Source of the DNA: Arcuatula senhousia
Lineage: Eukaryota; Mollusca; Bivalvia; Mytilida; Mytilidae
DNA: 64,000 bases
Direction: 5' to 3'
Assembly: GCA_963971305.1 (NCBI GenBank)
Contig: OZ020303.1
Coordinates: forward strand, 57,350,867 to 57,414,866
Shown here: positions 8,461 to 64,000 of the stretch, one piece after another
Position numbering within the stretch: position 1 is the first letter of the stretch
Layout of the letters: each line of letters starts with the position of its first letter
Program-made: the position numbers and the translations under genes
The notes under the pieces: generated by a model
Seen by the model: only the letters and a program-made list of their open reading frames with translations
Told to the model about the DNA's origin: nothing
Databases searched by the model: none

Positions 8461-9432
8461 TCATCCATCAGTGTGATTTATAATAGACCCTACAGAATAT
8501 TCGTCTAATAATTCAATAAAAGCACTGTTTGGAATAAATTCTACACGAGCAAAATCAGAATGTTCACATTCAACTAGAAATGTTGCAATATCTTCTATTT
8601 CCGACCCCATATGGTCCACCTTCGATTCTACTCTTTGTAAAACATCTAAAAATTCGATACCAGGCTTTACGTCCCTTAACTCGTCTTTCATGCTACAAAT
8701 GTCTTGAGAAAATGAATCAAGTTGCGCTTCGAGATTAAAACGAGTAAAATCTGCCCTTTCAACCTCATCTACGAGTTCGTCTACAGCCCTTAGAATGGTT
8801 TCATAACATACAGCCAGTCTATCGCGAAGCTGTTCCAATTCACATTTTACTGACGATTTACTTTCTTGAAAAGCTTCTCGCAAACGATACTGGTCTGTGA
8901 TCAACTGACGCACACGATTCTCTTGTCCCGTAAGTGTGTGTTGTAGAATATGAACATCGTCCTTCCGTCTGTTATAAATATCATAAAGAGTGCTGCATTC
9001 ACAAGTTTCCGAACGATGATCATTAACCGCACATTCTGAACAAACAAGTACATCATCGGTTGCACAATAGAATTCCCGCGGTCTTCCATGATGACGTTTG
9101 CATGTTGAAATCATTCCTTCGTGTATTTCCACTGCTTTCTTCAAACTCCATAAAAACGTAGCAGGAGGAAAATGTAAAGCCCATCTCTTGGCGTTCTTCA
9201 TTTCGTACGGTTTTTTAATAACATGTCTATCTATTGGGCAGAGAAATTCTGAATCTGTAGCGGATTGTTTTATATACTCCGTCAAGCAGTTTAGGCAAAA
9301 ACTATGGCCACATGGCAAGACACGAGGGTCGCGGTACTGGTCCATACAAATACTGCATATCAAATACTCCTCCTTTACATTTTTAATCGTTCTTTCTTCG
9401 TCATTTTGTGAATCCATATTACAGTCAGCCAT
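8461..9432 (-). CDS. TRIM-like RING/B-box/coiled-coil protein
   Basis: A single exon of 323 codons. Residues 26-68 form a RING finger: C26, C29, C41, H43, C46, C49, C65, with D68 where the last cysteine is expected. Residues 111-146 form a B-box: C111, H114, C123, D126, C131, C134, H139 and C144/C146. Residues ~155-290 are predicted coiled coil from their charged heptad-like pattern. There is no C-terminal NHL, PRY-SPRY or filamin domain, so this is a short C-terminally plain TRIM. Such proteins usually act as E3 ubiquitin ligases in the cytoplasm, and many bivalve members respond to infection (family knowledge). The stop codon lies only 60 bp from the palindromic foldback element at 7049-8400, and no AATAAA occurs between them on this strand. 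Confidence 0.85.
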   Translation of the reverse strand: MADCNMDSQNDEERTIKNVKEEYLICSICMDQYRDPRVLPCGHSFCLNCLTEYIKQSATDSEFLCPIDRHVIKKPYEMKNAKRWALHFPPATFLWSLKKAVEIHEGMISTCKRHHGRPREFYCATDDVLVCSECAVNDHRSETCECSTLYDIYNRRKDDVHILQHTLTGQENRVRQLITDQYRLREAFQESKSSVKCELEQLRDRLAVCYETILRAVDELVDEVERADFTRFNLEAQLDSFSQDICSMKDELRDVKPGIEFLDVLQRVESKVDHMGSEIEDIATFLVECEHSDFARVEFIPNSAFIELLDEYSVGSIINHTDG

Positions 9433-9579
9433 TTTTATTTTTATTGTTAAGTTACAAATTCAACATTGTTTTGTTTCCTTTGTTTTTATGCCAAAGAAGT
9501 ATACAATGATTTGTACTACAAATTTGATATACTTCGCATTGTTTTGAGTCGACAGCGAAACGAATTCGTTTTCATTACT
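9433..9579. promoter_or_regulatory. Possible divergent promoter region
   Basis: 147 bp separate the TRIM-like start codon (minus strand) from a possible plus-strand first exon at 9580. No clear TATA box is placed. Assignment rests only on the head-to-head arrangement, and the plus-strand partner is itself uncertain. Confidence 0.25.
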
Positions 9580-23600: not shown

Positions 23601-26600
23601 TTGCATTATGTTCTTTAAATTTATTGATAATACAGGTAAACTTGCATATTATGGATAAAAATTACAACATTGTTCCAAACAATAGCTTGCCTGACAATCG
23701 TGTCGTTTATCTAAACTTATCAGAGGAATAATATCCAAAGATTGAAAATTCATAACACTATATGAATATGAAGAACATAGAACAACAACATAGAAATTAA
23801 CTAATTTCTTGGTGAAGTGGTTAACGCATCGGGCTACTAACAAAAAGAGTCGTGGTTCGGTCCTCTTCTGGGGTGAAAATTTCATGAACCAATTTTCCGA
23901 CTTTCTGTTGGCACCATTTGCGAGGATGGTCTCACAGAACAATGCTTGTTTCTCGGAAAGAACGAAAAAAGGTTGGGCCGTGTGTATGGAGAGCAACCCC
24001 CTATGCACATTAAGAGACCCCTTAGTAGTGTTTGATAAAAGTATGCTTAATGGAGCCGCTAAAAAGTCCACACTCGCAAACTGCTAGCTCGAGAGGGATT
24101 CACATTTATAAGCATCAAGCTTGTTTCCCAATCCAGGACAAATAAATATGTTAAAAGTAGATTAACTTATTAAGTATAAAAAGTCAGAGCTGATGACTTT
24201 TTTTCAACTTAATTCAAAAGTTTAATAATTTTTTATTATTTTGAGTTCGCTGCATTTCGTATTCGCAGACTTCTTACAATCACTTCTAGACAAAAAGGAC
24301 TGCAAACTTGCTTTATCCTTCAATCTCACATTTCGTTATACAGTGAAAACTGTTCAAACCGAACCCTGACAAAACCGAACTTCACATCAAACCGAACAAA
24401 ATCTAAAGTCCCTTAGAATTTTTAAAAGAAGTATAGTAATTGAACCTGTTAAAACCGAATACTGTCAAAACCGAATACCGAACTGTTTTTTTATTCCCTT
24501 TGTTTCATTAATGTTGTTATAAAAACTTGTCTTTTCCGAACTCATCTGAGCAAAAGGATTAATCTTTTGTACAAACAAATCTAACATGCCAATGTTGTAT
24601 GGCTTTGATAATCTGTTATTGACACTTATATGTTGTTTAAATGTTAATTAAATGAAATGACCCAAGCTGTCAAAATAATTAAGATATTGTTATTAAAGCA
24701 GTAATATGAATAATGTTTTGATAACAATGAGTTTCACCAATCTTCTGATGTTGATATGGCTTGATTGTGACCAAAGATTAGCTTAATAATTTAATTAATA
24801 TTATATGACAAAATTTTATTTTGATGAACCCCATATAAAAAATATAAAAAATGATAAATAATTCATTTTGTTTGTACAAAAAGATTGTTTTTTATTACAA
24901 TGTGCTCTCAGTTAAGAAAATGTTAATGCTTCACTTGATTCCAGAATATCTCATCAAAGTGTTTTATTCTTTCCTTATTTGTTCACATAATTTCAAGTTT
25001 CTTTATCTATTGTCCATTTCCATTTGTAATTGAACCCTGAGAAAATCGAACACCTGTCAAAACCGAACAAATCCCAAAGTCCCATTGCTGTTCGGTTTGG
25101 ACAGGTTTCACTGTATTGATGATGTCCTTTCACTAAACAGTCTTCGATTTGGTGACTATTTACATCTCATATATCCGAAGGAACTTGAGATAAAAGACAC
25201 TACAGATTCTAAGAGGTCCGCTTCACATTTGTATCTATTTCTCGAAATTGACACACTAGAAAGGGTTTGTACAAATCTTTCTGACAAACGTAATCACTTC
25301 AACTTTCCAATAGTTAACTTTCCTTTTCTATGTAGCAACAATCCGTCTGTTCCAGCATATGGAGTTTACGTATCAAAATTGATTTGATATTCCAGAGCAT
25401 GTGGGGTGTACAACGACTTCCTTGATAGAACTACACGACTGACAAGCAAATTTTCAACACAGGGGTACGTTGCTCCCAGGTTGTTGTCATCACTCAAGAA
25501 AATTTACGGGAGACATCATATGCTTGTATACAAATACGGGATTTCTATCTCTCAGTTGAGTACAAATGTTGGTTAAACATAGAGTTTGGTAATGTCATCC
25601 TTTCTGGATTTGACGAACACTAAATCGGTCTTTGGCAACGTGACAATGGTGCTATAGCAAGCAGGAACTGCTTACTCTTCCGGAGCACCTGAGTTCACTC
25701 TCGTTTCGACTTGAGTTTACAATGCTGAATGCGGTTTTGTTGTTATGTGTGTGTAAGTTTTATGTTGTTGCGTGGTTATTTTCGTTGTGATGATTTTTGT
25801 CTACCGGTTTTGTCTTTGTTTTAACGGTGTTACGATGTTGATTACCCCTTTGGTACACCTACATGACCTATGCTTCTTTCAATAAATGTGACAACAGCAA
25901 ATAAGGTTTCTTATCTTTCAATCTCATTACAAATAAGTAAAAAAGTAGTTATTTTAAAATTCATTTCGTACAGCATAAATATTAAAAACTGATTGGACGA
26001 AAAGATGACAGTGAACAGATGGCCAGTTAGTAAATCAAGAAGGACAATTGATACGGATACACTAGTACGGATATATTAGTATATTCACTCTCTTCGGTTA
26101 GCTCTGCTGGTGGAGTTTTAATTCCCCGAGGTTAGCCCGCTCCGGCATCAACACTTTTGTGTTGACGAACACATCAAAGCTATAAATTATCCGTTTAAAT
26201 TCCTAAATTGTCAAAACCCTAAGGTTCTTCCTACCCCAGACATAGGTTGTCCTTAGTTATATTTGATTTCTAGTTCGACATTTTTTTGGTATTATTCTAT
26301 GCTCTTCTTAGTCTTATAGTGTTTGGCATTTTCAACTTTTGGTAGAGCGCCTCTGATGAGTCTTGAATAGACGAAACGCGCGTCAGGCGTAGCCAAATTT
26401 ATTGTCTGGAACTTTGTTGTAATTTATATTTCAGATAATAGGCAGAGCACGATTTGAGCGAAAGTGGTTTTTTGAAGATCAGTCAATATTTCCTTCAAAT
26501 TAGTTCCATGAACAATAAATAATTAAAATTGTAACAATGGAACTAGAACTATATACGTCAAAGGCGATTCATAACATCTGACACCTTGTGATCAAATTCC

Positions 26601-29600
26601 CCTTTATAAAAATTACATTGTATTCGTAACTAAACCCCGTATATGTGAAATTGTATATTGTTATCGATGCAAGTAAAGACTACCACCAGGTCAGTGTTAT
26701 GGGCCGCCTCTAATATTGGGGGGAAGATGTTTAAGGTTATACTCAACTTTTACACGGATATTAAGTCCTGTGTAAAAGATGGAGATCTGAGAACAGATTT
26801 TTTTCCATGTGAAATTGGCGTTAGACAAGGTGAAAAGCTATCGCCTTTTTTGTTTGCTCTATATCTCAACGATTTAGAAGAATATTTAGTAGATAACGGC
26901 GGTGAACATTTATCCTTTGTGTCTGAATTATTTACTGAGAACATTAATATGTACATTAAATTATTTATATTATTGTATGCAGATGATACTGTCCTTTTTG
27001 CTGAATCTGCAGAAAAACTGCAAACAATGTTAAATAAATTTGAAAGTTATTGCAGAGAATGGAAGCTTTCTGTTAATGTAAACAAGACTAAAATTGTAAT
27101 TTTTTCAAACAGAAAGTTCAAACCTAATATTAATTTTACACTTTGTAACCAAGATGTAGAAATACAAGATTCTTATGTGTATTTGGGTATACTGTTCAAC
27201 TATAATGGAAAATATTTCCAAACTCGTAAAAAACTGGTCGAACAAGGGCAGAGAGCTTTGTATGCGCTATATAGAAAAATTCAAAATATAGCTATACCTG
27301 TTGACCTTCAATTAAAACTTTTTGATACTCTAGTTACTCCGATTTTGACATATTCGTCGGAGATCTGGGGGTATGAAAATAAAGATATTATAGAAAAGGT
27401 CCACCTACAATTCTGTAAGCGTATTCTCTCAGTGAGAACATCAACTCCAAATTTTATGGTATATGGTGAACTTGGAAGGTATCCCTTAGAGCTACAAATT
27501 AAATTGAAGATGGTTAATTTTTGGTATAGATTAGTAAGTAACGAACAAAAACTTTCGAGTAAATTATACTCACTTTGGGTAAAGCTTAATAGTAATGGTA
27601 ATCAAACATGTAAGTGGATCAACTACGTAAAGTCCATTTTTGATGATTGCGGTTTAAGCGGGGCATGGGAGATTCAACAATTTAATAATATAAATCTGTT
27701 AAAGGTAGAAGTTAAACGACGTCTCCAGGATCAGTTCATACAAAAATGGTTCGCAGATATGTATAATTCGTCAAGGGGGGAGTATTATTTATCTTTTAAG
27801 TCGTTATTTTCACTAGAGCCATATTTGTTACGACTAAGCCGAGTTCGTCGTATACACATAAGTAGATTTCGAACATGTAACATTAAATTTCCCATAGAAG
27901 TGGGTAGATGGAGAAACATTCCTAGGGAGGATAGAATTTGTAATCTGTGTATGAACGGTCTTGGAGATGAATACCACTTTGTTTGTGTATGCACTAATAT
28001 CAATGTACTTGAGCTAAGGCGAAAGTACATACCTAAGTATTGTGTTGAATATCCAAACAAAGAAAAGTTTTTTGGGATTAACAAGTTTTGTAATGTTAGT
28101 CTATTAAAAAATGTGTCTATTTTTATTCAAAAAGTTTGTAAACTATTAGAGTAGCTATCATATTTGTGTTGTACTGTCTTTTTCTTTCATATACCAGTTG
28201 TGATAAAAAAAAAATTATTTGTATGTACATGTAGGTATGTAATTAATTGTCTGTATTGCAGTTATATTTGTATTGTATTGTAGTTTGTTTAATTGTGCTC
28301 CTGTTACGCAGTTTCTGCGACTGAGCGATTTTCTAAATAAAATATTCTGTATTCTGTATTTTTGAAAAAATATATATAACAAAGTTCCAGACAACAAAGT
28401 TTGTTACGTCTGACGTGTGTTTCGTCTTTTTTATACCCCCTTCACATATACGAGATTTCCTTACGAGTTCTTACGAGTTTTCAAGTCATATTCGATCGCA
28501 AAGACTCTTTGTTACTCGTAAACAAGTCTTTCTAGCTCGTGTGAAATCGTAAGAAATCGTGAAAGTTTTACGAGGATTTTGACTTGTCAAAAATCCTCTC
28601 AATACCCCATTCACATCTCTTACAAATTGTAACGATTTTCAAAATTTATAGTTTTACCAGTTTTTGCGAGATTTTCTACAAACCTTTTACGATCTATTTC
28701 CGAGATTTCACTATTTCGTCAGTTGTGCGGAATTTTTTCGCACTCCCGTGCAGAGATGATACAAATTTTATTTTCGAAGTGTTTACAAGCATGTTACGGT
28801 GCCTTTATTACGTCTTTACGAGTGAATTGACATCGTAATTAACTCGCAAACCACTCGTAAAAGAGTTCCTTTGCAATGTCTTCCTGAGTTAGTTACCAGT
28901 TATACCCCCTTCACATATACGAGATTTCCTTACGAGTTCTTACGAGTTTTCAACTCTTAATCGATCGCAAAGACTCGTAAATCACTCTTTGATACTCGTT
29001 AACAGGTCTTTCTAGCTCGTGTGCAATCGTAAGAACTCGTGAAAGTTTTACGAGGATTTTTGACATGTCAAAAATCCTCGTAAGACTTTTACGAGTTGAA
29101 AAAGCAACAATGTCATAATTTAACTCGTAAACACATCGCAAATAACTCGTAAAGAACTCGTAGAGATCGTAAATGACTCGCCTTTACTCGTAACTTACTC
29201 GGGAAGACCTCGCAAAGGAATTCTTTTACGAGTGGTTTACGAGTTAGTTACGATATCATTTCCAATATCGCATTTAACTCGTAAAGACGTCGTAAAGGCA
29301 CCGTAACATGCTCGTAAACACTTCGAAAATAAAATTCGTATCGTCTCTGGATGGGAGTGCGAAAAATTTCCGCACAACTGACGAAATCGTGACAACTCGG
29401 AAATAGATCGTAAAAGGTTGGTAGAAAATCTCGCAAGAACTCGTAAAACTATAAATTTTGATAATCGTAACAACTCGTAAGAGAATATCGTATATGTGAC
29501 GGGGGTAGTAAGACGAGGCATTACTGACTTTGTTGTTTTTTAAACTCGTAAAACTTTCACGAGTTCTTACGATTGCACACGAGCTAGAACGACCTGTTTA

Positions 29601-40760: not shown

Positions 40761-41413
40761 AGGATGAGTCCAGTTTGCCTTTTGGTCACACTTAGAAAAA
40801 AGTCAAAATAACAATGTACGATTTTTTTTACATCTTTGAATGCTTGGAATGCAACTAAATGTTGAAAATAATAATATTATAAAACGAAAATTGTAAAAAT
40901 TTCTAAGCAAAAAATATATGTTTAATTTTCGTCTTCGGTATTCCAAGAATCCCGTTGGTAGCTTTTGTTCTCAGAATAATTTGAAGATTGAAACTTTTTA
41001 AAACTTAAACATTAAGCTGATTTATAAGTATATATAAAGACCTATAAACAACAGACTGTGACATCTTTGATCCAATGTAGACTTTTGTAAAGCTCGATGA
41101 GCTGAAGGTTTAAGCAAGCAACAGCTTTTCTCTATCTGCATTAGTTTCCTATTTCCTCCACTAACCTAACCAAACTTTGATGCAGTTATTTTAAAGACCA
41201 AACAGCCTATTGTTTATGCGCACACTACTGAGCAATATTTTCTGTCTCTGTGACGTCCTTTTCGCCAACGTTTTCTTACGCCATAAATCACGTTTCATTT
41301 CGCGCATTTTATGTCTATTCAAATATGGCGTCGCGCTTGAAAGGTCGGTTCGCCAAAGCTACAGAAATAGATAGAAGAAAAGTTGCCAGTTTGAATATTT
41401 CAAACCACAACAG

Positions 41414-41726
41414 ATGTACCAGAAACGTAGAGGGACAAAGATACCAGAAGACAAAACTTTCCAGCCTGGCATTTGGAATTTAGGAGAAAGAAGAGTGTTT
41501 GAACCAGCCGAAGTTCATCGGAGACTGAGCCAAGGTTGCGAGATGTGTGGAGTGGAGCTAAAATTTACCAGAATTGTTTCCGAAACTGTGTGTGGATTGG
41601 GGTCCATGATTTACATCTCATGTGACTGTGGAATGTTAAACAAACTAAACACCGGGAAAGTCCATTACAGCCAGGGGAAAAACAAGACACGACCAATATT
41701 TGACATCAACACGAAAGTTGCAATCG
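41414..41726 (+). CDS. Transposase-exonuclease gene, exon 1
   Basis: Encodes the cysteine cluster and the FDINTKVAI segment, ending at GTATTA (41727) in phase 1. Upstream at 41325 an ATG in good context opens a basic frame (MASRLKGRFAKATEIDRR) that looks like a genuine N-terminus but sits in another frame and ends at 41483. The two frames overlap over 41375-41483, so either translation starts at 41414 or one small indel separates the true N-terminus from the rest. Confidence 0.65.
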
Positions 41727-44700
41727 GTATTATATTAAATTTTATACTTCCAGCTAATTTTAAGCAATCAAATAATAAGCCAACGGTTGAACCTGCTTAA
41801 GATAAAAATAATTACGCAAATATTAAATGTTAACATGCTTAGTTAAGGTTAAAAGGAAATGTTTGTAGAGCTAGAGGTGGCATGAATTGACTCTGTTTAA
41901 AAACTTGACTACATAAGAATTTACTACTACGGTAGCTTCTTACAACAATATTTTACACCCTATGTCATATTAAATGTCTACAATGTGTAAATTATTACGA
42001 CATTTCAATTACCACACACACATTTACATTGTAACAATATTTATTTCAATTCAAATTGTAACGGTCATAAAAGTACACTGCATGACGTTGGCCGCATTCC
42101 AAAGTGACGTCACAATGGGCAAGGTGCTCTCATTGAATAAAAGTTAGTTTTTCTGCAACAATACAGTATTAGAGGAAATAAGATATAGTTTATTGGCATG
42201 ATAGTTTATAATTTCATGAAGAAATTGATGCCTTGAAGAAAAAAAAATATGTCAAGTAGAAAATAAAATTTATAGGTGTACGCGACAAAGCCCCATAAAC
42301 CACAATGAAAAACAGCCATGCAGCAGTCTTCAATGGGGCAAAAAGGCGCTGTCCGCCGTTTTGCGATTGGTCCAAGGTTGAAATAAGAATAATAGATGCA
42401 TAGAATTCAAAATGTAAATGGCCGGATTTCGACAGGAAGTATACCCTTGATTAATATCTTTTAAAAATCCGGCCAAATAATTAAAATGTTTTTTTTTAAA
42501 TGTTATTTATTATTTAATTAATACAGCTATGTATGATACCGGAATGGGACCTCATCAGGTGAATAGGTTTCTGACTGATATAAACCTACCAGGAATCTGT
42601 CAGACGTCACTTAAAAAGAGAGAAAGAGAAGTGTGTGAGCCAATAAAAGAAGTCGCAAAGAAAGCATTAGATGAAGCACTAGAGGAAGAAAAGGCAGCTG
42701 TTGTATCACATAGGTGAATTTATTTATTGGTCATGGTCCTCAAGGAAACCGAGAAAACAGATAAACGTCTTCAGTTTTTTACCTAATATTTATTTTTTTT
42801 AAATATGCGGTAGAAATAATTAGTTTTTAAAGATTTCCAATTTTTCGTATAGTTTGACTTTCTAAGACGTCAATTTGTGTAAGAATGTTGGTATGTCATA
42901 AAAACACATTTATATCAGATTTTATGCACCGGTAGAATTACTAGCTATCGTTTACCGCTGGAAATCTGAAGACAGTCCAAAAGAATAACGGTGATCGATT
43001 TTCAGCAAAGAAGAGGACAATAGGAGAAAATGGTAGACAAGATTAGACTGTTGTTAACCATTTTCTCCTTTTGTTTTTTTCTTGGTTAAGAAGCTAGTAA
43101 TATAATGTGGAATAAATGTCATGTTCAGATACATGTAAATGTTTTTAAACAGTCTTCAGATTTCCACTACCAGTGTTAGCGATACCTGGTAATACCCTGT
43201 GTTATGTACAGGTAGGATGTAATAAATGCACCTCTTTCGTGTCTTTTTGTGGTTTGTGTTTCTTCGTGCTGTTCATGTTCGTGGTTTTTGTCGTTGCCCT
43301 TTCGGACTTTTGACACTCGAATATGCTCCATTGGTGCATCTTTGCTTCTTGAATTTAGTCGCTTTCTGTGATGTGATACAGGTCAAAATTTCGCATGCCC
43401 TTTTAATAGTTCTTGGATTTAAATTTTGTACACATGTTTGAAAGAAAAATTGCAGAGTTTCGTTAAACAGGAAGTGAATGAATGATAGATCTGAAAATAA
43501 AAACTATGGCACTCCATGCCGATGTTACATACATGTAAAACAGCTACGGAAAATGCCGTATTAGTGTTTTTTTTTCGTGGTGATTTAATTTTCGCTTTAT
43601 TCGCGGCAATCATCGGAATGCAAAAATTAGAACCATAAAATATTAGTCGATCATAAATCCACCAAATTACATTATGCGAAAATAAAAACATCCTTTTTCA
43701 CATGATTCCGACTTTAACCACTTGAAATCCGACAAAAATATATGTTATTTATGAATTTAAACTTTTTCTAATTATAGTGTACTTCCAAGTGGAGACAATA
43801 TTCCCCTCTCCGTCAAGTATGATATGGGATGGCAGAAAAGAGGCAGTGGACGGAAATATAATTCGAAATCTGGGGTAGGCAGTATGATAGGCCACGAGAC
43901 GGGAAAGCTTCTCGATGTTGATGTAAGATCTTCAGACTGCAGAGTATGCACGTATTGGGGAGACAAGGAGATAGACACACCGCCGCACAACTGCACGAGA
44001 AATTGGTTTGGTACTGCAAAAGCTATGGAGCCAGATGTCGGCCTTCATCTCTTACAAAACATAGAAACAAAGGGCTGTACTGTTGAAAATATTATTATGG
44101 ATGATGACACAACCACAATGGCAAGAATACGGGGCAAGATAGATCACCCTATTGAAAAATGGAGTGACCTGGGTCACACGAATGTACAACTTGGTAATAG
44201 GCTGTATAAACTTCGTGAGAAATATAAGAAAGATTTTACCCCCGACCATATTGCACATATACAGAGACTTTTTATGTATGCAATTAAGTCACATAAAGAT
44301 AATAGCGAAGCTATTTCAGAAGCCATTACTTCTATAGTCCCGCATGTCTTTGGGTCACATGAACTGTGTAATGAAACCTGGTGTGGATATCTGAAAAATC
44401 CAAACAGCTACAAGCCTACTGTTCTGTTATTAAATGAATGTTTGAAGACTGACTTGCAATTAATTTTTGAAAATTACATGGAAGAAAAAAATGTAAGAAA
44501 ACTAGCCCCGTGTGGATCAACAAAAGACAATGAGTCTTTCAACAATATGGTTGCACATAAAGCCCCAAAAAACAAGCATTATTGTTCATCAGAAAGCCTC
44601 GAAAGCCGAGTAATGTGTGCAGCTGCGCAAAAAAATATGTCTTTTGACTATGTTTCAGAAGTTAATGTACAGTGTGGTCTTTCGCCAGGGAAATATACTT

Positions 44701-45806
44701 ACAGAATGTCAAATCGTCTCTCAAGAAAAAGAAAGCAACAATCTGATTTCAAGAGCAGCAAAGAGTTCAAAAGAAAGAAACTTTCTAAAACCAAAAAATT
44801 AAAGATTGAGCAAACTGTTGGAGAAATACGCGAAGGGGTAACTTACCAAACAGGAGTAGACATCCTTCCATCATCGTCAGCCGATATTGAAACGATATCA
44901 GTACCAACCATACCACCATGTCTTGAGAAAGTTTCAATAGATCCTGACAGTTACACACTGGTATTCTTTGATTTGGAGACAAGCTCTTTAGCAATGAATT
45001 GTGACATTCTACAAGTGGCTGCATGTTACGGTAATGTGATATTTAACCAGTATGTTACTCCTACTCAACACATTGACAAGCGGGCGTCTGAGGTGACAGG
45101 ATTGACTTATTCTAGTAACTTTTTATGTTATAACGGCAGAAAAGTAGACTCTTGTCTACCACAGCAGGCAATGCAGAAATTAATTTGCTGGATTAATGAA
45201 GTTCCAACGCAGAATATTGTGTTAGTAGGACACAACTGCAAGAAGTTCGACATGCCGAGGCTTCTCAACACGCTACACAGATATAACCTCGTTGGCTCGT
45301 TTGAAGAAAAGGTAAGGGGGTTCGTTGATACCCTTACTTTGTTTCGAGAAAAATATCCACATTTAAAAAGCCACAAACAAGAAGTACTTGCAAAAACCAT
45401 CCTGAAACGGCCTTATAATGCCCATAACGCTGAAGATGACGTGAACATTTTACAACAATTGTTAAATGCTGCAAATATAAGTCATAGAGATATTATCCAA
45501 CATTCGTTCTCGACATCTTCCAGTAATATTGTTTGCAAGCATGCAAGAAGCACAGCTGTACGTCTACTCACTTTGAAACGTCTTCAGGATGGAAAGGTTG
45601 CAACTCCGGTAATGGTAAAACGTATAGCTGATAGCGGGTTAGATTTAAAGCAACTTATCCTAGCTTATAGAAGAGATAATGATGCTGGAATACATGGTGT
45701 TTTGTCCGAGAAAAGAAGTGATGGACACGTTAGGGTTACAGCCCGAAAATGCATTACTCTCAAAATCAGTAACTTTATAGCCAAGCTCAGTGAGGATATT
45801 AACTAA
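41414..45806 (+). CDS. Mutator/Kolobok-like transposase fused to a DEDDh 3'-5' exonuclease
   Basis: Exons (41325 or 41414)-41726, 42527-42713 and 43778-45806 join in phases 1 and 2; from the 41414 ATG the product has 842 residues. Residues ~40-75 hold a cysteine cluster (C42, C45, C70, C72). 'MGPHQVN..L' then 'LKKREREV' follows in exon 2, and 'YDMGWQKRG' near 181-189, CRVC at 221-224 and an acidic DDD at 275-277 are typical of the metazoan 'Mutator-like transposase' domain. A basic linker (~480-515) leads into a DEDDh exonuclease: D565-x-E567 (FFDLETS), D658 (GHNCKKFD) and H716-x4-D721, all present. The exonuclease would trim 3' DNA ends; its role in transposition is unknown. No stop or frameshift after 41414. 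An in-phase link between the ATG at 41325 and the main frame is missing. Confidence 0.8.
42275..42385 (+). repeat. Dispersed 'ccagcagccttcaatgtga' repeat in transposase intron 1
   Basis: A diverged copy ('cagccatgcagcagtcttcaatg', 'gctgtccgccgttttgcgattgg') located between exons 1 and 2 of the transposase gene. Confidence 0.6.
42527..42713 (+). CDS. Transposase-exonuclease gene, exon 2
   Basis: The acceptor 'aattaatacag' ends at 42526 and the donor GTGAAT is at 42714. It enters in phase 1 (G|CT, alanine) and leaves in phase 2. It encodes the helical TGMGPHQVN...REREV block and an acidic helix. Confidence 0.75.
42900..43205. repeat. Foldback MITE in transposase intron 2
   Basis: 'ccgctggaaatctgaagaca' near 42955 is complementary to 'agtcttcagatttcca' near 43152. 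The outer parts ('caccggtagaattactagct' and 'agcgatacctggtaataccc') continue the pairing imperfectly. A second, smaller inverted pair (ggagaaaatggt / accattttctcc) lies at 43023-43070 in the loop. Confidence 0.55.
43235..43335 (+). repeat. 3' fragment of the reverse-transcriptase element family
   Basis: 'gttcatgttcgtggtttttg', 'ttgccctttcggacttttga' and 'ccattggtgcatctttgctt' match in reverse complement the 3' region of the copy near 49350-49470. Sits in the second intron of the transposase gene. Confidence 0.6.
43778..45806 (+). CDS. Transposase-exonuclease gene, exon 3 (main exon)
   Basis: The acceptor 'tctaattatag' ends at 43777; AG|T gives serine 167. It encodes most of the transposase core, the lysine-rich linker and the whole exonuclease domain, with ~95 further C-terminal residues after the HxxxxD motif. 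Stop at 45804-45806. Confidence 0.85.
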
Positions 45807-46063
45807 GAAATATTCATATCATAGATGGGTTATATGTCTATGTTCATACTTAAGAAAGTGTTTAAGTCACCGAGTTCTTAAAGTTATTATTTAAATCATG
45901 TGTTAAAATAAATTTAGATTTTCCTTTTAATTGCCACTAGTCCTACGTTTTTTACGAGTAAAGATATAACACACAAAGCAAAGCACGACACATATTCGCA
46001 AAACATAATAGTCATAATAAATAAAATGGCATCATACAGAATATAAGAGATAATTAGATGTGG

Positions 46064-46195
46064 AATAAGTGTACGCGACACAACCTACAACATTGACAAC
46101 AATTTTAAAAATCCACAACGTAAAACGGCCAGCAGCCTTCAATGTGATCAACGGTCGCTGCTCGCTGTTTTTCAATTGGCCCTGGATTAAATGTA
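46064..46195 (+). repeat. Dispersed 'ccagcagccttcaatgtga' repeat in the transposon 3' region
   Basis: The best-matching full copy outside the tandem duplication: 'gtacgcgacacaacctacaa', 'tttaaaaatccacaac', 'ggccagcagccttcaatgtg', 'tcgctgctcgctgttttt'. It lies downstream of the transposase stop, inside the TTAA-bounded element. Confidence 0.65.
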
Positions 46196-47730
46196 ACAAC
46201 AAAACTACCGAACTGGAATGATCAGTCTCATATATCAAAGAAGAAAAAGACAAAACAAGGCAACGACACACCAGAGAAATTGAAGATCGCAATAGTTCTG
46301 GCTTGGTACAGGCATTTCAAAAGAAATGGTGGGTTGAAACAAAATGAAACAAAACAAAGGAACAGCGCTTTTATTCAGTGTTGTTCTTCATGCTTACCAT
46401 AAGCCATAGAATCCACTGTCAATATAGAACGCAATGAAAGGTGTTCAAATTTCGATGCCAAAAACAGACAAACACATTAAAGACAACTCGCACATGCATC
46501 ACTAACTGTCATCACACGTCAAAGCGAGAATAGGCACGAGTTGAGTTTAGGTGCTCCGGAATCAGGAAAATTAAGATAAATGAAATTCCAATCAATCAAT
46601 GTATCTATAGTAATAGGAGATATCAAAATACGGCACCGGATTTATCAAATTGCTAGCAAATTGGAAGAAGAAAAATCACGTGCTTCTATAAGGATAAACT
46701 TTTATCATGCAGCTTGCACTACAGGGACGTAAATTTATCAAAATACCACTATCTTTACCTATTCTTGTATTATGTGTATTATGTTATGGCACAAATCACG
46801 TACTTCTGTATATGAAAAGACTTTTTATCCTCTCCATTTCCTTTCTCTTGTTTTCATTTTTTTCAAAGGAGGGAGCTAGTGTGTACTTATTACTATGCTC
46901 TCCCGTAAAAGGTCCTACCGATCCTCATTTATATTTCATGTTACTCAAAAAAGAAAACTTGAAAAGGTTGAAAATTGAAAAAGAAAACAAAAAGTAATAG
47001 ATATTTCTTGTTAAAACAATAATATTAACAGCTAGGTCCTTTAGACAATCAATACTTACCAGATGAGTTTTATGACACAGTCGTGAAATATGCACCATAA
47101 ACATAAAACATTGACACCGAAGGGTGCTGAAACAAGCTTCGGAGCAAAAAAGGCGGGAATGACATCTATGACGTCAATAATATATAGAAAGACTGTTCAA
47201 AGAGGAATAACTCTTTTCTTGATCACAAACAATGAAAAAAGTTCCATATCTTTTTTTAGAAGTCGGTGACATATGATTTTTATTACTGCAAATTAAAGTG
47301 GACACCAAAATACATAACTTATATACTTTATAAGTGAAAATCACCGATAGATATTTTTATATCTTGGTTTTTAAATGGTCATTAACGCGTGATTTTTTGG
47401 CGGGAAAGAACTTAACTGACGTTTTTTTATGTGAAACTATGTGGTTTTAATAATGTTATGTTTTCTTATAAATCCCACACAATTCAGGTATGATGTAAAG
47501 TTTAGTTGAATGTATTCCACTCAATATTTATGAAATAATTTTAGATATTTTGATATGATAAATAAATCAAAATTTCGTATAAATAACACAATTTGAGATT
47601 GCCATAGCAACGAAAAAAGGTCGGTGACCCCATATTTTTTTCTTGTTATTGTTCTTAGAATATCTTTAGCTTTTTACTGGCAAAGTTTAAAGAAAATATC
47701 ACCGGTGGAATTAAATAGGCGGTTTGGTCT
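46196..47730. other. 3' non-coding part of the TTAA-bounded transposon
   Basis: AT-rich. The fragment 'gagtttaggtgctccggaatc' at ~46542 resembles the 3' end of the reverse-transcriptase family. A 96-codon frame at 46707-46997 is hydrophobic then lysine-rich and not convincing. Confidence 0.4.
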
Positions 47731-48394
47731 TTAAACTAAATAGGAGATAATAAACCTACATGTACAATGTACTGGATCTAAAAACAAATAATGTTTAGGA
47801 TAAACGCTTACATGACTTAGATTCATTTTTATCTTAAAATGGCTTAATTTTAGATTGATTTAATAGTATGTGTACAACAAAGGCTACTTATAGAATTCAA
47901 CAATAAACCTTAGCAGGACCAAGAAATAACAAAGTCTTTTTTATGTTACTAAAGCAGACCTTTGTTTTTTGTGTCCATTGCGGCTTGCTAGGCAATATGC
48001 ATTAGAGTCCACACTTGTTTATAGAAAAAAAAAATAGCACCAAAAATTTTTTGGAATATTTCACTATACACTTTAACTAAATTTCGAATGATTATATCTG
48101 AAAAAAGCAAAATAACATAGAACTAATATAAATATGATGTTATTTTAGGCAGTTTATCAAATTTCATTATAAAAAATTGCGTTTTTCCCGCTGCAGGTGC
48201 CACCACATATATGAAATTTGCCTGATTCTTACGTAGACTGATACTACATTGCAAGCTACTGAGCAAGCATTGATACTACAAGCTACATTGAAAAATGAAA
48301 TAAAAAACGGGGGTCACCATTCTTGTTTTTCCAAAATTTTGAGTTGAAAATTCAAGATTTTGGGTATTTTTAATAAAGATATAATATAAAATAC
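47731..48394. other. Gene-free stretch
   Basis: AT-rich sequence downstream of the transposon. No coding region or repeat structure that I can support. Confidence 0.45.
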
Positions 48395-48830
48395 AAATGA
48401 CAACAAAGTTCCAGACAATAAATTTTGCTACGCCTGACGCGCGTTTCGTCTATTCAAGACTCATCAGAGGCGCTCTACCAAAAATATTAAAAATGCCAAA
48501 CACTGTATGAATATGAAGAGCATAGAACAGAATAACCAAAAAATACCAAACTGGGGAACCAAATCATTACTAAGATATTCAACCTATGTCTGGGGTAGGA
48601 AGAACCTTAGGGTTTAGACAATTTTGAAATTTAGACGGACAATTTAAAGCTTTGATGTATTCTCCAACTCAAAAGTGTTGGTGCCGGAGCGGGCTAACCT
48701 CGGGGAATTTAAACTCCACCAGCAGTGCTAACCTTCACTTGTGTTCGAAATACAAATGACAACAAAGTTCCAGACAATAAATTTTGCTACGCCTGACGCG
48801 CGTTTCGTCTATTCAAGACTCACTTTTTTC
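48395..48830 (+). mobile_element. GACGCGCGTTTCGTC module, one full and one truncated copy in tandem
   Basis: A full module (48395-~48750) is followed directly by the first ~70 bp of another (48756-48826), in the same orientation and joined end to start ('gttcgaaatacaaatgacaa'). The second copy is nearly identical to the first over this part. Blocks: 'caaagttccagacaataaat', core, 'tcatcagaggcgctctacca', 'aggaagaaccttagggttta', hairpin, 'ccggagcgggctaac'. Confidence 0.75.
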
Positions 48831-49329: not shown

Positions 49330-50560
49330 CATTGATATTTGGCAATGCGGCTTCAGCATCAGGTAAGCAGGAAGTAGCTAAGAAAGAAGCAGAGGTACCA
49401 ATGGGGTATCCGAATATCAAAAGTCCGAAAGGGCAGAGACAAAACCAGCAAACACCAACAAGAACGGGACAAAAACAGACAACATGTAAAACATGGAAAC
49501 ACAAAACAACTGAATATCAATCAACAACGCGAACTCTAGTCGAAACCAGAGTGAACTCAGGTGCTCCGGAAGAGTAAGCAGTTCCTGCTTGCTATAGCAC
49601 ACCCGTCGCGTTGCCAATAGTCCATTCAGCGTGTCAAATCCGGTAAAGGAAGACAAAACAACACCCTATGACAAACCAACATCTGCACTCATCTGAGAGA
49701 TCGAAATCCCATATTTGTCTATAAGTGCATGATGTCTTCCGTAAAATTTCTTGAGTGAAGACAGCAACCGAGGAGCAACATAACCCTGTGTGAGCAATTT
49801 TTGCGTCAGACTTGTCGCTCTGCTAAGGAAATCGATGCAAGTCCCGCACGCTCTGGAGTAACGAATCAATTGAGATACGTAAACTCCATAAGCTGGAGCG
49901 GACGGAATGTTGCTACACAAGAAGGGGAAGTTGACGATTGGAAAGTTGAAGTCATCACGTTTGTCATAGAGCCTTGTTGAAAGTCTTCCTTGAGAGTCAA
50001 TTTCGAGATGTAGATCTAAATATGAAGCAGACTTCCTAGAATCCGTTGTGTCCTTTATCTCAAGCTCCTGTGGATATATGAGATGGAGAAAGTCACCAAA
50101 TCGAGAATTGTTAAGTGAAAGGACATCATCAATATAACGGAACGTGAGGTTGAAAGAGAGAGCTAGTCTACGGTCTTTTTTGTCTAGAAGAGATTGCAAG
50201 AAGTCTGCCTCATATGAATGAAGAAACAAATCAGCAAGCAAAGGTGCACAATTAGTGCCCATTGGAATCCCTATTGTTTGCTGAAAAACACGTCCACCAA
50301 ACTGAACAAATATGTTGTCAATAAGAAAGTTGAGCATGTCGATTATTTGGTCTTCTGTAAATTTGTTCTTCTTCTTAGACTCATTGATGACAAAGTAAGT
50401 CTTGGTATTGTCGACTACAAGAAATTTGTACCTGCGTTTTCCATTCTTTTTGAAAAAGCTGCGTTTAATCAGCTGTGCCAATCGCGATTTCAGTTGTTCA
50501 TGTGGAACTGAAGGACTAAACTCAGTATTGACCAGATGTAACAAAAGGATTAATCGGATT
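49330..50560 (-). mobile_element. Truncated reverse-transcriptase retroelement, best-preserved copy
   Basis: Coding part 49666-50544 on the minus strand plus a 3' region down to ~49330 ('cttccggagcacctgagttc', 'tctgccctttcggac' in reverse complement). This 3' region recurs at 25600-25890, 35480-35600, 43235-43335, 51050-51110 and 52700-52770. The 5' side is cut off near 50560. Confidence 0.7.
49666..50544 (-). pseudogene. Reverse-transcriptase domain fragment, GIPMG/YIDD type
   Basis: An open frame of 292 codons. It shows GIPMG at residues 92-96 followed by T-N-C-A-P, the catalytic YIDD at 137-140, and a C-terminal S-L-x-K-F-Y-G-R-H-H motif (~265-274). The GxPMG plus YxDD combination recalls Penelope-like/telomerase-type reverse transcriptases, but I cannot fix the clade. 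It starts in mid-domain, so the N-terminal part and any nuclease are missing. No stop interrupts what is left, making this the youngest of the copies in the window. Confidence 0.75.
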
Positions 50561-50919
50561 CCGCTTATAGGTTAGAGAGTGTGTTGCTTTATTCCCAAGC
50601 AGAGCGATTTCCGTTATATCCATAGATGAACATGAAAGGGGTGATAGAATGAATATGAAATGATGATGAAGTGGAGGAAAAAATGACAATCGGGCTGCCA
50701 ATGGAAAAAGGAGTGATGGATAGGGACAGGCAATTTAGCCTCCTGCATGTGGGCAAAGCGGCTTGACCTGACATGCTTAGCGCTTCTGTTGGCCTATTTG
50801 CCAACCAGAACCCACACCGGTGAATTCCGTGTATTACTTACAATCGTATGATACCTAGTCTGTCCGCCATGTACAATTAGCATCATATCACTAATAAAGT
50901 GTTGATCGGTTAGATATCG

Positions 50920-51534: not shown

Positions 51535-52690
51535 TTGGTTCAATATTCAACGTTCAACAATCAACATTCAATTTTGTTTGTTAGTTCAACATTCAAAATT
51601 TTTTAAATTCAATATTGAAACAGATTTTGGTTCAACATTTTAATTTAGTATTGAAACAGATTTTGGTTCAACATTCAACATTCAAATTTTTTTGTTAGTT
51701 CAACATTCAAAATTTTTCTTAGTTCAATATTGAAACAGATTTCAGTTCGACGCTCAACATTTAAATTTTTTCTTAATTTAACATGGAAGCAGATTTTGGT
51801 TCAACGTTCAACATTCAAATTTTTCTTAGTTCAATATTGAAACAGATATTGGTTCAACGTTCAACATTCGAAATTTTTCTTAGTTCAATATTGAAACAGA
51901 TTTTAGTTCAACGTTCAACATTCAAAATTGTTCTTAGTTCAATAGTGAAGCAGATTTTGGTTCAACGTTCAACATTAATTTTTTTTTCTTTGTTCAATAT
52001 TGAAGCAGATTTTGGTTCACCTTTCAACATTCAAAATTTTTCTTAGTTCAATATTGAACCAGATTTTGGTTCAACGTTCAAAATTTGAAATTTTTCTTAG
52101 TTCAATATTGAACCAGATTTCAGTTCAACGTTCAACATTCAAAATTTTTCTTAGTTCAATATTGAAACAGATTTCAGTTCAACGTTCAACATTCAAAATT
52201 TTTCTTAGTTCAATATTGAAACAGATTTCAGTTCAACGTTCAACATTCAATTTTTTTCTGAGTTCAATATTGAACCAGAATTCGGTTCAACGTTCAACAT
52301 TTAAATTTTCTTAGTTCAATATTGAAACAGATTTCAGTTCAACGTTCATTATTCAAATTGTTTTCTTAGTTCAATATTGAACCAGATTTTGGTTCAACGT
52401 TCAACATTCAAAATTTTTCTTAGTTTAATATAGAAACAGATTTTGGTTCAACGTTCAACATTTGAAATTTTTCTTAGTTCAATATTGAACAGATTTTGGT
52501 TCAACGTTCAACATTTGAAAATTTTCTTAGTTCAATATTGAAACAGAATTCAGTTCAACGTTCAAAATTCAAAATTTTTCTTTGTTCAATATTGAAACAG
52601 ATTTTATTTCAACGTTCAACATTCAAAATTTTTCTTAGTTCAATATTGAACCAGATTTCAGTTCAGCGTTCAACATTCGAAATTTTTCTT
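51535..52690 (+). repeat. Left ~54-bp tandem array of the foldback element
   Basis: About twenty units of the type 'ttcaacgttcaacattcaaa' + 'atttttcttag' + TTCAATATTGAA + 'acagattt.(g/a)g'. Each unit contains the palindrome TTCAATATTGAA. Because 54 is a multiple of 3, long in-frame translations (FKIFLSSIL-type) arise, but they are not genes. Confidence 0.9.
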
Positions 52691-52699
52691 ATTAGAAAC

Positions 52700-56484: not shown

Positions 56485-58345
56485 GATTGAATGTTGAACG
56501 TTGAACCAAAATCTAGTTCAATATTAAACTAAGAAAAATTTTGAATGTTGAACGTTGAACTGAAATCTGTTTCAATATTGAAATAGGGTAATTTTGAATG
56601 TTGAACGTTGAACTGAAATCTGGCTCAATATTGAACTAAGAAAAATTTTGAATGATGAACGTTGGACTGAAATCTGCTTCAATATTGAACTAAGAAAAAT
56701 TTTAAACGTTGAACGTTGAACAAAAATCTGGCTCAATATTGAACTAAGAAAAATTTTGAATGTTGAACGTTGAACTGAAATCTGTTTCAATACTGAACTA
56801 AGAAAAATTTCGGATGTTGTACGTTGAACCAAAATCTGTTTCAATATTGAACTAAGAAAATTTCGAATGTTGAACGTTGAACCAAAATCTGTTTCAATAT
56901 TGAACTAAAAATAAATTTGAATGTTGAACGTTAAACCGAAATCTGTTTCAATATTGAACTAAGAAAAATTTTGAATTTTCAACGTTGAACCAAAATGTGT
57001 TTCAATATTGAACTAAGAAAAATTTTGAATGTTGAACGTTGAACCAAAATTTGCTTCAATATTAAACTAAAAAAAATGAATGTTGAACGTTGAACTGAAA
57101 TCTGTTTCAATATTGAACTAAGAAAAATTTCGAATGTTGAACGTTGAACAAAAATCTGTTTCAATATTGAACTAAGAAAAATTTTAAATGTTGAACGTTG
57201 ATCTGAAATCTGTTTCAATATTGAACTAAAAAAATTCGGATGTTGAACGTTGAATCAAAATATGTTTCAATATTGAATTAAGAAAAAGTTTGAATGTTAA
57301 ACGTTGAATTGAAATCTGCTTCAATATTGAACTAAGAAAAATTTTGAATGCTGAACGTTGAACCAAAATCTGCTTCAATATTGAACTAAGAAAACTTTTG
57401 GATGTTGAACGTTGAACTGAAATCTGTTTGAATACAAATGACAACAAAGTTGCAGACAATAAATTTTGCTACGCCTGATGCGCGTTTCGTCTTTTCAAGA
57501 CTCATCAGAGGCGCTCTACCAAAGTTATTGAAAATCCCAAACACTTTATGATTATGAAGAGCATAGAACAGATAAACCAAAAAATACCAAACTGGGGAAC
57601 CAAATATTGAAAGAAGAAAAATTTCAAATGTTGAACGTTGAACCAAACTCTGGTTCAATATTAAACTAAGAGAAATTTTTAATGTTGAACGTTGAACCAA
57701 AATCACTAAGAAAATTTTGAATGTTGAACGTTGAACTGAAATCTGTTTCAATATTGAACTTAGAAAAATTTCGAATGTTGAACGTTGAACAAAAATCTGT
57801 TTCTATATTGAACTAAGAAAAATTTCGAATGTTGCACGTTGAACCAAAATCTGTTTCAATATTAAATAAAGAAAAATTTGGAATGTTGAACGTTGAATCA
57901 AAATCTTTAAGAAAAAAAATTGAATGTTGAACGTTGAACTGAAATCTGTTTCAATATTGAACTAAGAAAAATTTCGAATGTTGAATGTTGAACCAAAATC
58001 TGTTTCAATATTGAACTAAGAAAAATTTTGAAAGTTGAACGTTGAACTGAAATTTGTTTCAATGTTGAACTACGAAAAATTTTGAATGTTGAACGTTGAA
58101 CCGAAATCTGCTTCAATATTGAACTAAGAAAACTTTTGAATGTTGAACGTTGAACTGAAATTTGTTTCAATATTGAACTAAGAAAAAATTTGAATGTTGA
58201 ACGTTGAGCCAAAATCTGCTTCAATATTGAACTAAGAAAAAAATTGAATGTTGAACCAAAATCTTTTTCAATATTGAACTAAGAAAAAAATTGAATGTTG
58301 AACGTTGAACCAAAATCACTAAGAAAAATTTTGAATGTTGAACGT
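56485..58345 (-). repeat. Right ~54-bp tandem array of the foldback element
   Basis: More than thirty units in the orientation opposite to the left array ('gaatgttgaacgttgaac', 'ctgtttcaatattgaactaag'). The array continues after the LINE insertion at 59288-59385. It is longer than the left array, so copy number changed after insertion. Confidence 0.9.
57434..57605 (+). repeat. GACGCGCGTTTCGTC module inserted in the right array
   Basis: The first ~170 bp of the module ('caaatgacaacaaagttgca' to 'ctggggaaccaaat') interrupts an array unit between 'aaatctgtttgaata' and 'ttgaaagaagaaa'. It is truncated at its 3' side. Confidence 0.7.
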
Positions 58346-61508: not shown

Positions 61509-62867
61509 TCAAGTTGGTGTTCTCGTCGATTTTCTATTCGATAGAGATTTTCTAGATGACAGCACAGAAACACAGATGAAAACACCATGGAGACTACAGA
61601 CTATAGTATATATGTAATACATCCAGTCTTCATCCAATAAGGACGCAAAAACCCCAGTAACCCAGAACAAACCAGATGCAATCACTAGACGAAGAAATGT
61701 AAGAGCTTCTTGGTACAGATTAAGTTTGCGTACATGAAGAGTTTCGATGCGGAGAGAACAAACCTTGCAAACAATAATTCCTAGACAGATTGAGTTGACA
61801 AAAAGAGACAGAACAATAGGACCAGTGAGAAAAACTAAACTGGAGGGATACTTTTCAAGTGAGCAAATTGTCCCATTGTACCTTGATGACCACAGCGGTG
61901 GTCCGTATTGGTCTAAACAGATAGAGGCAATAACAAAGGGAGTAGGTATAAGCAAACCAATTATAGAAATTTGAAGTCTTTGCCTCCAAGAATATTGTTT
62001 TCTAATACTTTGTTTGTAAAACCGTTTACAAATATGCCCAACTGATACTGCTAAAAAGGCAAAAAAAGCTAGCCATGTGTAATGCAAGGTGCAACCGACC
62101 ATGTAACAAATTGTGGACATTCTGTGCACCTTTGGTCCAATCAATTGCAATATATATGCCAGTAAAAGTGAGACAGATATATTTTCTATGTTGGCTGCTG
62201 TAATATTTGTAATGGAATCACGTTTTCTTTGTACAATTATTAAGATCAAAAGCGCCGTACTTGAAAGTCCTAAGCAAACGTATGTGACAATATCTGGTAA
62301 GGATAATGTATTCGAGCTAACATTTCTTTCTCCTTCTTTGATTTCTTCTATTATCAAAATGGGGACATCGTATCTTGCCTTTACTTGTACACTCGGAGAC
62401 AAATCGTTGAGCTTTTGGTTGTTAGTAATTATAGCGTTTTTAGAATCACCTATTGCAGCATAATTCGGAAGCGAAAGCGGAAACTTAACATTTTTTCCAA
62501 CTGTAAAATTCCAATGACCATGTCGCATTTCTAATCTTGTTGTCAGCTGAGTTGAATTGTCAACAAGGTCAAACAATACTTTTCTATTGTCGAGAAATTT
62601 CAAAAATGAATTGAACTCGTGAAAAAAGGTTGGTTTAAAGTATTTTAAACCTAACATCATGTTCATGTTAAATCCTTCTTCCTGAATATCTATTTCATAT
62701 AAATCGCTGGTGGTTAGGTCTTCCACATTGAAAAGAATAGGTGTAACCAGTGCTATTTGTTCTAAAATGTCCATCGACAAACTTTTGTCTGATACCCACA
62801 TCATATTTATTGATTTTCTTAAATCTGTGTAAAGATTCAAATGGCTGCATTCACCATTAATGGTCAT
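61509..62867 (-). CDS. Class B receptor, terminal exon (seven-helix domain)
   Basis: The frame opens exactly at the acceptor with ATG, but this methionine is internal: the upstream exon joins it in phase 0. The short cytoplasmic tail (~14 residues) is rich in Ser, Arg and Lys. Confidence 0.8.
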   Translation of the reverse strand: MTINGECSHLNLYTDLRKSINMMWVSDKSLSMDILEQIALVTPILFNVEDLTTSDLYEIDIQEEGFNMNMMLGLKYFKPTFFHEFNSFLKFLDNRKVLFDLVDNSTQLTTRLEMRHGHWNFTVGKNVKFPLSLPNYAAIGDSKNAIITNNQKLNDLSPSVQVKARYDVPILIIEEIKEGERNVSSNTLSLPDIVTYVCLGLSSTALLILIIVQRKRDSITNITAANIENISVSLLLAYILQLIGPKVHRMSTICYMVGCTLHYTWLAFFAFLAVSVGHICKRFYKQSIRKQYSWRQRLQISIIGLLIPTPFVIASICLDQYGPPLWSSRYNGTICSLEKYPSSLVFLTGPIVLSLFVNSICLGIIVCKVCSLRIETLHVRKLNLYQEALTFLRLVIASGLFWVTGVFASLLDEDWMYYIYTIVCSLHGVFICVSVLSSRKSLSNRKSTRTPT

Positions 62868-64000
62868 CTGAAAAAAAATAATTGATTGATTGTTGTTTGC
62901 TTAAGGTTCCAGCCATAATCGGGACATAAAAAGTTGTAATATATAAATAAAAAGTGGAAATAAAGCAAAGCCAAAAGACCGTAGATAACATTAAAGGTAC
63001 GATAAGATAAATAAATAGATAAAATAAACATAAAAAATGAAAACACTAAAACCAATTACAATGATAGCAAAAAGGAAGCAGGTTCAAAGACTAACTAAAT
63101 ACAGCAGAATTAATAGCACATGTGCTGTAATTAACTCTGCTTAAAAAGTTAACAGTCTAGATTATGCAAATTATTGCAAATGATTTGAAGGCACAATAAA
63201 ACCACCACGTTTGTTTTTTAAAGCAAAACTTCTCGCTACTGAATACTATCGTATACATGTTTTACACACTCAGGTTCAATCAAGTCCAGAAAATCCAAGA
63301 CATTTTCAAAATTTTATGTTGAAATGATGTGGTATTAAAGAATCAAATTTGATTCTTCGACCCATAACATTGCAGAGGCAAACAACTGATATGGAATTCT
63401 TTGAATGATATAGGACCAATGAAAATCATGTGTAATAATCTTATTTTATTTACCCTCTTTATATAAACAAGTACTCACGCTTTCATCCCAAATGTCGCAT
63501 CCATCATGCTGATCATGGGAGGTTTGTTCCGAAAAAGAAAACAGAATTGACATCATGAATTTTTCGTTGTACCACCAAGAACTCTCATAATTTGGTGAAG
63601 GGTCTGCAACACAGTATATTTCTGTGTTTTCAGTGCTTCGGTTATGGACACAATTAGTAATAAATTTTGTTCTATACGGGGATCCATCTTTTATGTTGAT
63701 AGTTACTGAGCTTATATACTCATTGCACACGTTATTGCTTAAGGATTTGTTTTCTGTTTTAATTTCAAGTGGTTGTAAAAGACAACCTCTCAAATTTGAT
63801 TCGTATTGATGTAGCTCTAAAAGGCGAAAAAACTGTTTTTTGTATGTATTGTTCATGTGTACATTAAACACAAGTCGAAATATTTCGTGATTTGGTTTGT
63901 TCTGATTTTGTATAACGGTGTCGAACGCACTGTCTATAACGAATACACGAGTTGGAACAGTTTCATACTGGGTTATACCATTACATATGGCACACATCTT
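61509..64000 (-). CDS. Class B (secretin/adhesion-type) seven-helix receptor, 3' part
   Basis: Two exons: 63479 to beyond the window edge (GTGAGT donor) and 61509-62867 (acceptor 'attttttttcag'), joined in phase 0. The last exon supplies 452 residues: an extracellular part (~1-188), then seven hydrophobic segments near 190-212, 225-245, 252-278, 297-318, 343-367, 387-410 and 415-437. C254 at the top of helix 3 and C335 in the second extracellular loop can form the class B disulfide, and the 'LHYTWLAFFAF' helix 3 and 'GLFWVTGVFAS' helix 6 resemble adhesion receptors. No GPS autoproteolysis motif (the W/C pattern with HL-S/T) is seen before helix 1. The visible extracellular exon is cysteine-bearing and unrecognised. 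Ligand unknown. The 5' part lies outside the window. Confidence 0.8.
62868..63478. other. Intron of the class B receptor gene
   Basis: 611 bp, GT-AG, AT-rich, with no repeat noticed. Confidence 0.7.
63479..64000 (-). CDS. Class B receptor, extracellular exon (partial)
   Basis: 173 codons from the ATG at 63997, and the frame is still open at the window edge (a lysine codon precedes). It includes paired cysteines (CAIC, GC, NVC, NC, YC, GC) and several N-x-S/T sites, consistent with a secreted or extracellular fold. No named domain recognised. Confidence 0.7.

Follow-up and report, generated by a model that had tools for sequence, protein, structure and literature searches.

A KolobokD transposon of Arcuatula senhousia with a transposase-exonuclease fusion, and the likeness of its C-terminal module to that of fish and shark PML

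Kolobok DNA transposons are TTAA-specific and have 5'-RR...YY-3' termini, the latter separating them from piggyBac, and one of their lineages, KolobokD, was named in 2022 for elements with a DEDDh exonuclease in molluscs, arthropods and cnidarians (Kojima and Bao, PMC9587614). The same authors proposed that this exonuclease degrades DNA intermediates from the 3' end (PMC9587614). In the open-licence literature searched, KolobokD is named in that one paper only. Here, a stretch of 64,000 nucleotides on contig C1 of the 1.036-Gb genome assembly of the bivalve Arcuatula senhousia (hereafter the window) was analyzed, with a focus on a TTAA-bordered element at 41195-47730 (41191-47734 with its TTAA copies). 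This element is a KolobokD cut-and-paste DNA transposon and a member of a known lineage, as every listed KolobokD feature that could be assessed here was found in it. The fusion of a transposase to an exonuclease, on which the first-pass annotation of the sequence had centered, is therefore not new but is what defines KolobokD (PMC9587614).

Inside TTAA, the inverted ends of the element share 16 of their first 17 bases, rather than all 17 as had been described, but the TTAA on both sides and the inward orientation of the ends were confirmed. A 19-base end pattern that includes the TTAA, TTAAAGACCAAACNGCCTA, was found at exactly two sites in the window with three mismatches allowed (shuffles expect 0.06); both sites are mismatch-free and face inward. 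The termini inside TTAA are AG...CT, which fits the RR/YY rule of Kolobok (PMC9587614). When the first kilobase of the element was used as a query against the assembly, nine genomic places were matched. Four of these are near-full-length copies (the window copy and those on C1050, C7 and C1667), with pairwise identities of 98.95-99.79% in ungapped columns only, indels reaching 256 bases. All four have TTAA directly on both sides, and their flanks differ over the 60 bases inspected per side. The expected 4-bp duplication is also present in a 171-bp deleted copy on C4, which retains both ends (one with a single mismatch), their TTAA and little else, and at the right end only of a 2.4-kb deleted copy (L013 on C5), whose right end is clear while the left deviates from the pattern. 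Genome-wide end counts rest on exact matches only, because a scan with up to two mismatches was at background, with 57 matches versus 67 for a reversed control. Fifteen exact matches to the 19-base end were found. Eight of them face each other as the ends of the four full-length copies, and a ninth lies in the 171-bp copy; the remaining six are unpaired, and the three of these that were inspected match the right end of the element over 67-283 bases. The proposed search for TTAA-bordered ends facing each other at about 6.5 kb thus returned four full-length pairs, each with TTAA borders. Near-identical copies with different flanks and TTAA borders, together with a 171-bp copy that has both ends, indicate that the family transposed recently.

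The transposase has the DDD/E triad with a C/DxxH motif between the second D and the E, and two zinc fingers, one between DxxH and E and a CCHC finger after the first D, all nearly invariant in the column counts of relatives. In covered rows, the H/H/C/C residues of the former are present in 127/127, 126/126, 127/127 and 126/127 sequences, and the C/C/H/C residues of the latter in 116/116, 116/116, 116/118 and 118/118; these zinc-finger residues are our own assignment. An RNase H-like integrase fold is apparent in the predicted structure. Among Pfam models, the third exon matches Mutator PF20700 (E-value 4.6e-54), PML_C (9.1e-13), Exu_RNase_H_like (2.1e-11) and RNase_T (3.9e-8), whereas the PF20700 match of the first exon (4.4e-5; positions 2-81, in the frame that opens at ATG 41414) lies below the Pfam cut-off. 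The suggested domain search therefore recovered both the Mutator and the RNase T/exonuclease domains, and PML_C in addition. The earlier label of a Mutator-type transposase is correct as a PF20700 match, but the Pfam name is loose and the element is Kolobok rather than a classical Mutator. Target-site duplications of Mutator/MuDR (MULE) elements are 8-11 bp long, which excludes that family here given the 4-bp TTAA. piggyBac shares TTAA but was rejected, as no piggyBac Pfam model was matched at E-values up to 1, PF20700 being found instead.

The protein of the unbroken copies has the order N-terminal region, DDD/E transposase, basic linker, DEDDh exonuclease encoded together with the transposase, and SAM-like/PML_C domain, the last being a helical domain behind the exonuclease that Pfam assigns to PML_C. 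The three-exon gene with two introns proposed at first pass agrees with the window sequence and with relatives: the introns at 41726/42527 and 42713/43778 start with GT and end in AG, and joining the exons gives a smooth fit to the protein sequences of relatives. The claim of an intact gene without stops did not survive, as a single-base difference in exon 1 of the window copy breaks the frame from ATG 41325, which then runs into stops. The long frame of the window copy opens instead at the internal ATG 41414, minus the N-terminus of the other copies, and the residue numbers given earlier fit that start. The copies on C1050, C7 and C1667 are unbroken, and each encodes an 872-residue protein from the ATG equivalent to 41325; it begins with MASRLKGRF, which the window also encodes from 41325, and the closest relative (P0001) begins with MASRIKGRF. 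Judged by sequence, the other three copies could produce the full-length protein, which is probably beyond the window copy. Recent activity, earlier derived from the lack of stops, is thus borne out by the near-identical copies and not by the broken frame of the window. An 81-base dispersed repeat at 46100-46180, in the 3' non-coding part of the transposon, also occurs at 20561, 22381 and 40660.

Two adjacent genes merged by the gene model, a possibility raised in the first-pass annotation, would also give such a domain order, but this is scarcely credible and nothing in its favor was seen: the C-terminus of the transposase, the linker, the exonuclease and PML_C lie in a single open exon of 2029 bases that is unbroken in 4/4 copies, and relatives have the same order. 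Transposase and exonuclease occur together in 135 of the 236 proteins collected (a count with isoforms, in which the family of the window is one), and their order is the same in relatives from molluscs, insects and a hemichordate. The best protein relative, from Mytilus coruscus, shares 67% identity over 68% of the query (best 120 of 121 matches listed).

All five catalytic residues reported for the exonuclease (D565, E567, D658, H716 and D721, numbered from ATG 41414) were found, which excludes an Exuperantia-type EXO-SAM (exonuclease plus SAM-like) module with lost catalytic residues. Relatives classed as transposon-derived number 141 (135 by transposase match, six by linker only), and DEDDh is complete in 116/116 assessable rows, the other 25 being partial. 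In another 75 rows with neither a transposase nor the name PML, mostly fish Plex9-type proteins, 63 of 65 assessable rows keep all five. By sequence and structure the exonuclease is nearest to zebrafish Plex9.1, beside Exu and TREX1, the VIA structure comparison rows covering residues 1-202 only; one Plex9.1 structure is deposited as 'TREX1 Homolog Plex9.1 bound to ssDNA'. A protein search with the exonuclease region alone matched three proteins, and Exu was not among the matches at E-values up to 1 in a solved-structure search with an insect KolobokD.

The explanation that best fits the whole, and which we consider probable if not strongly so, is a KolobokD element whose fused exonuclease acts on DNA 3' ends in excision or integration. 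Its observed basis consists of the ends, the TTAA borders, the recent multiplication, the domain order and the conserved active sites. In unbroken copies a single spliced gene encodes the 872-residue protein, whose DDD/E transposase inserts at TTAA, and the exonuclease may then act, at the transposition complex, on the 3' ends made during either step. Possible targets are the flanks, which it might trim, and failed strand-transfer products or donor-site ends, which it might remove; the SAM-like domain may help to bind nucleic acid. The first-pass reading of a TTAA transposon with a fused exonuclease stands, and its end-processing role appears plausible. Exons diverge less than the remainder of the element among the copies (0.15-0.73% vs 0.25-1.27%; lower in 6/6 pairs), a picture suggestive of selection on the protein.

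Several points weigh against this explanation. Within the four-copy family, the exonuclease differs by 2-7 changes per pair and protein-altering changes outnumber silent ones in 5/6 pairs, so that selection on the exonuclease appears visible between lineages but not within the family. The relatives were found with complete queries, which favors intact ones, and isoforms and near-duplicates among them overstate their independence; most come from match lists (best 120 of 121 and best 120 of 256 listed). Moreover, among EXO-SAM proteins whose biochemistry is known, the nearest are Exu and human PML-1; both bind RNA, and the PML-1 domain showed no nuclease activity (PMC12934764), so that RNA could be the substrate of the transposon module as well.

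The last point leads to the alternative that binding of RNA or DNA, for targeting or regulation, is the main function of the EXO-SAM module, as in Exu and human PML-1, with cutting being secondary. The PXL module of PML-1 has EXO and SAM parts as Exu does, although in different relative orientation, and both proteins bind poly(UG) RNA preferentially (PMC12934764). However, Exu and PML-1 lost catalytic residues, whereas all 116 assessable transposon rows kept all five, and we regard this alternative as quite improbable. An exonuclease that is a passenger without function is very improbable. Among 29 sequences, mean pairwise identity is 44% for the transposase but 36% for the exonuclease and 28% for the SAM-like domain. 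The exonuclease nevertheless stands above the linker (26%), and its active site does not vary in the same 116 rows. It is also conceivable, if unlikely, that the exonuclease leaves the ends untouched and shields the element from the host, clearing stray transposon DNA before it is sensed, in the manner of TREX1, or degrades competing elements. The closest solved relatives, Plex9.1 followed by Exu and TREX1, would suit such a function. LINE-1 is restricted by fish PML and Plex9. However, fusion to the transposase places the exonuclease at the transposition complex, and no sign of action away from the ends was seen.

Sequence comparison argues firmly that the EXO-SAM module of the transposon and the C-terminal module of PML in fish and sharks are homologous over their entire length. 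An hhalign comparison of the transposon EXO-SAM profile with one built from six PML ends of fish and sharks covers 259 columns with a probability of 100 and an E-value of 8.8e-62. The window protein and spotted-gar PML share 36% identity over 188 residues of the exonuclease part (E-value 1e-29). With a fish relative as the seed, PML of spotted gar, bowfin and sturgeon and 'PML-like' proteins of sharks and rays with the two-domain end were retrieved (best 120 of 256 listed). The spotted-gar protein (P0140) has RING, B-box, PML coiled coil, exonuclease and PML_C, and all five catalytic residues are kept in 9/9 fish and shark PML rows counted, two of which are isoforms of one gene, a second and incomplete gar PML record being left uncounted. 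The solved structure of the corresponding region of human PML-1 is that of a pseudonuclease composed of an EXO-like and a SAM-like part, with only one of four acidic residues left; its authors reported the SAM part as absent from other nucleases and Exu, Plex9.1 and TREX1 as the top structural matches (PMC12934764). The words 'transpos' and 'Kolobok' are absent from the main text of that paper. In the literature searched, including the available parts of PMC9587614, PMC12934764, PMC11602975 and PMC9319628, neither the end-to-end homology of the two-domain module with fish and shark PML nor any link of PML to Kolobok was found; PML and Kolobok co-occur in one review only, as unrelated words, and PML with PLEX9 in one paper. 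PML-like exonucleases of jawed vertebrates are reportedly the subject of a 2023 paper in Nucleic Acids Research, which may add to this.

Three trees, whose rows were chosen by hand among 225 proteins that match the exonuclease, disagree on who took the module from whom. In the first (75 rows, no outgroup, midpoint root), ten fish and shark PML rows (100/100) fall among transposon rows, with bootstraps of 82-89 at the forks. In the second (exonuclease only, 73 rows, five bacterial outgroups), three mollusc transposon rows are placed next to PML rows within the vertebrates (90/83), the bootstrap being unsettled and long branches meeting elsewhere in the tree. Support for the placement of PML in these two trees is moderate. 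The third (68 rows, four of the five outgroups), for which 18 of the 75 rows of the first were dropped by hand as long, near-duplicate or redundant, and in which 7 of 15 Plex9-type rows were used and the bootstrap had not quite settled, speaks against the nesting of PML and transposon rows in the other two. It contains a vertebrate PML and Plex9 clade without transposon rows (98/87), and all transposon rows lie on one side of a branch opposite vertebrates and outgroup, with support of 21/0. Free-standing invertebrate EXO-PML_C proteins without a transposase match, P0198 (Acropora), P0207 (Pomacea) and P0210 (Littorina), are scattered among transposon rows in the 75-row and 68-row trees. In P0227, a predicted protein of Mizuhopecten yessoensis, part of mitochondrial EF-Ts is joined to an EXO-PML_C module, possibly another capture or else a gene-model error.

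It is quite possible, although advanced only tentatively, that fish Plex9 and the C-terminal module of PML, which corresponds to exon 9 in human PML-1, were captured from KolobokD by an ancestral TRIM-type gene in early jawed vertebrates, served first as an active DNA exonuclease and later became a dead nucleic-acid-binding module on the way to humans. An active first use is suggested by the active site kept in the gar, bowfin, sturgeon and shark/ray rows. PML is known from jawed vertebrates, and the spread of KolobokD over molluscs, insects and a hemichordate would favor capture by PML; Drosophila Exu may be a second, independent capture. If the tail of PML did come from a transposon, a vertebrate protein of antiviral defence and genome stability would be partly transposon-made, and the transposon enzymes would be working models of what that tail once did. 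The window adds to KolobokD a recently active family with unbroken copies, which makes the role of the extra nuclease testable; we know of no test of a KolobokD exonuclease.

Apart from the transposon (Table 1), the window contains a TRIM-type open frame with RING and B-box domains at 8464-9459(-), roughly 32 kb away from it; PML is built from these two domains together with a KolobokD-like end. Other open frames match Mab-21_C (2042-5344(+)) and secretin-type 7tm_2 (61512-62900(-)), and reverse-transcriptase matches lie at 26649-28151(+) and 49669-50571(-), the latter below the Pfam cut-off. Four type I hammerhead ribozymes score above the Rfam threshold (21399-21442(-), 23221-23264(-), 26347-26390(+) and 48430-48473(-)), three of them inside the dispersed repeat family D6. 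A 54-bp tandem unit forms two arrays in opposite orientation (51698-52691 and 56487-58317), with up to 332 bases at 90% complementarity. No tRNA genes were found in the 64-kb window.

Table 1. Positions in the window of the parts of the KolobokD element
Feature	Position	Strand	Basis or remarks
Left TTAA target-site duplication	41191..41194	n/a	Seen in sequence; pattern match; other copies
Left terminal inverted repeat, 17 bp	41195..41211	+	16/17 match to right end
Exon 1, as in the three unbroken copies	41325..41726	+	ATG 41325; donor GT at 41727; weak PF20700
Exon 2	42527..42713	+	PF20700, E-value 4.2e-12; GT/AG borders; protein continuity
Exon 3, including stop codon	43778..45806	+	Rest of transposase, linker, exonuclease and SAM-like/PML_C in one open frame
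Transposase catalytic signature	43821..44534	+	D 43821; D-D-D 44100-44108; DxxH 44166-44177; E 44532; two zinc-finger-like motifs between
DEDDh 3'-5' exonuclease domain	44955..45491	+	D 44970, E 44976, D 45249, H 45423, D 45438
SAM-like/PML_C domain (PF25244)	45567..45785	+	Pfam; AlphaFold2 pLDDT 97.3; hhalign with fish and shark PML ends
Right terminal inverted repeat	47714..47730	-	
Right TTAA target-site duplication	47731..47734	n/a	

Among described systems, KolobokD has in common with the element of the window the TTAA duplications, RR/YY ends, DDD/E with C/DxxH, two zinc fingers and DEDDh exonuclease. Its description names exuperantia, TREX and ERI1 as relatives, whereas a PML_C/SAM-like domain or PML is not mentioned in the available part (PMC9587614). 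KolobokE, KolobokP and KolobokH likewise add an extra enzyme, but their partners are lambda-exonuclease-like, His-Me finger and RecQ, respectively (PMC9587614). The Plex9 exonucleases of teleost fish (zebrafish Plex9.1, 9mrc/9mrd) differ in being free-standing, with no transposase, and most Plex9-type rows match only the exonuclease part of the EXO-SAM profile. Drosophila Exuperantia (5l80) is a pseudonuclease (PMC12934764), the SAM part of which was unaligned in the VIA comparison. The C-terminal module of PML (PML-1 exon 9, 'PXL') has the domain order of the window protein, EXO followed by SAM-like/PML_C; however, the human PML-1 version is catalytically dead (PMC12934764), unlike the exonuclease of the window with its complete active site.

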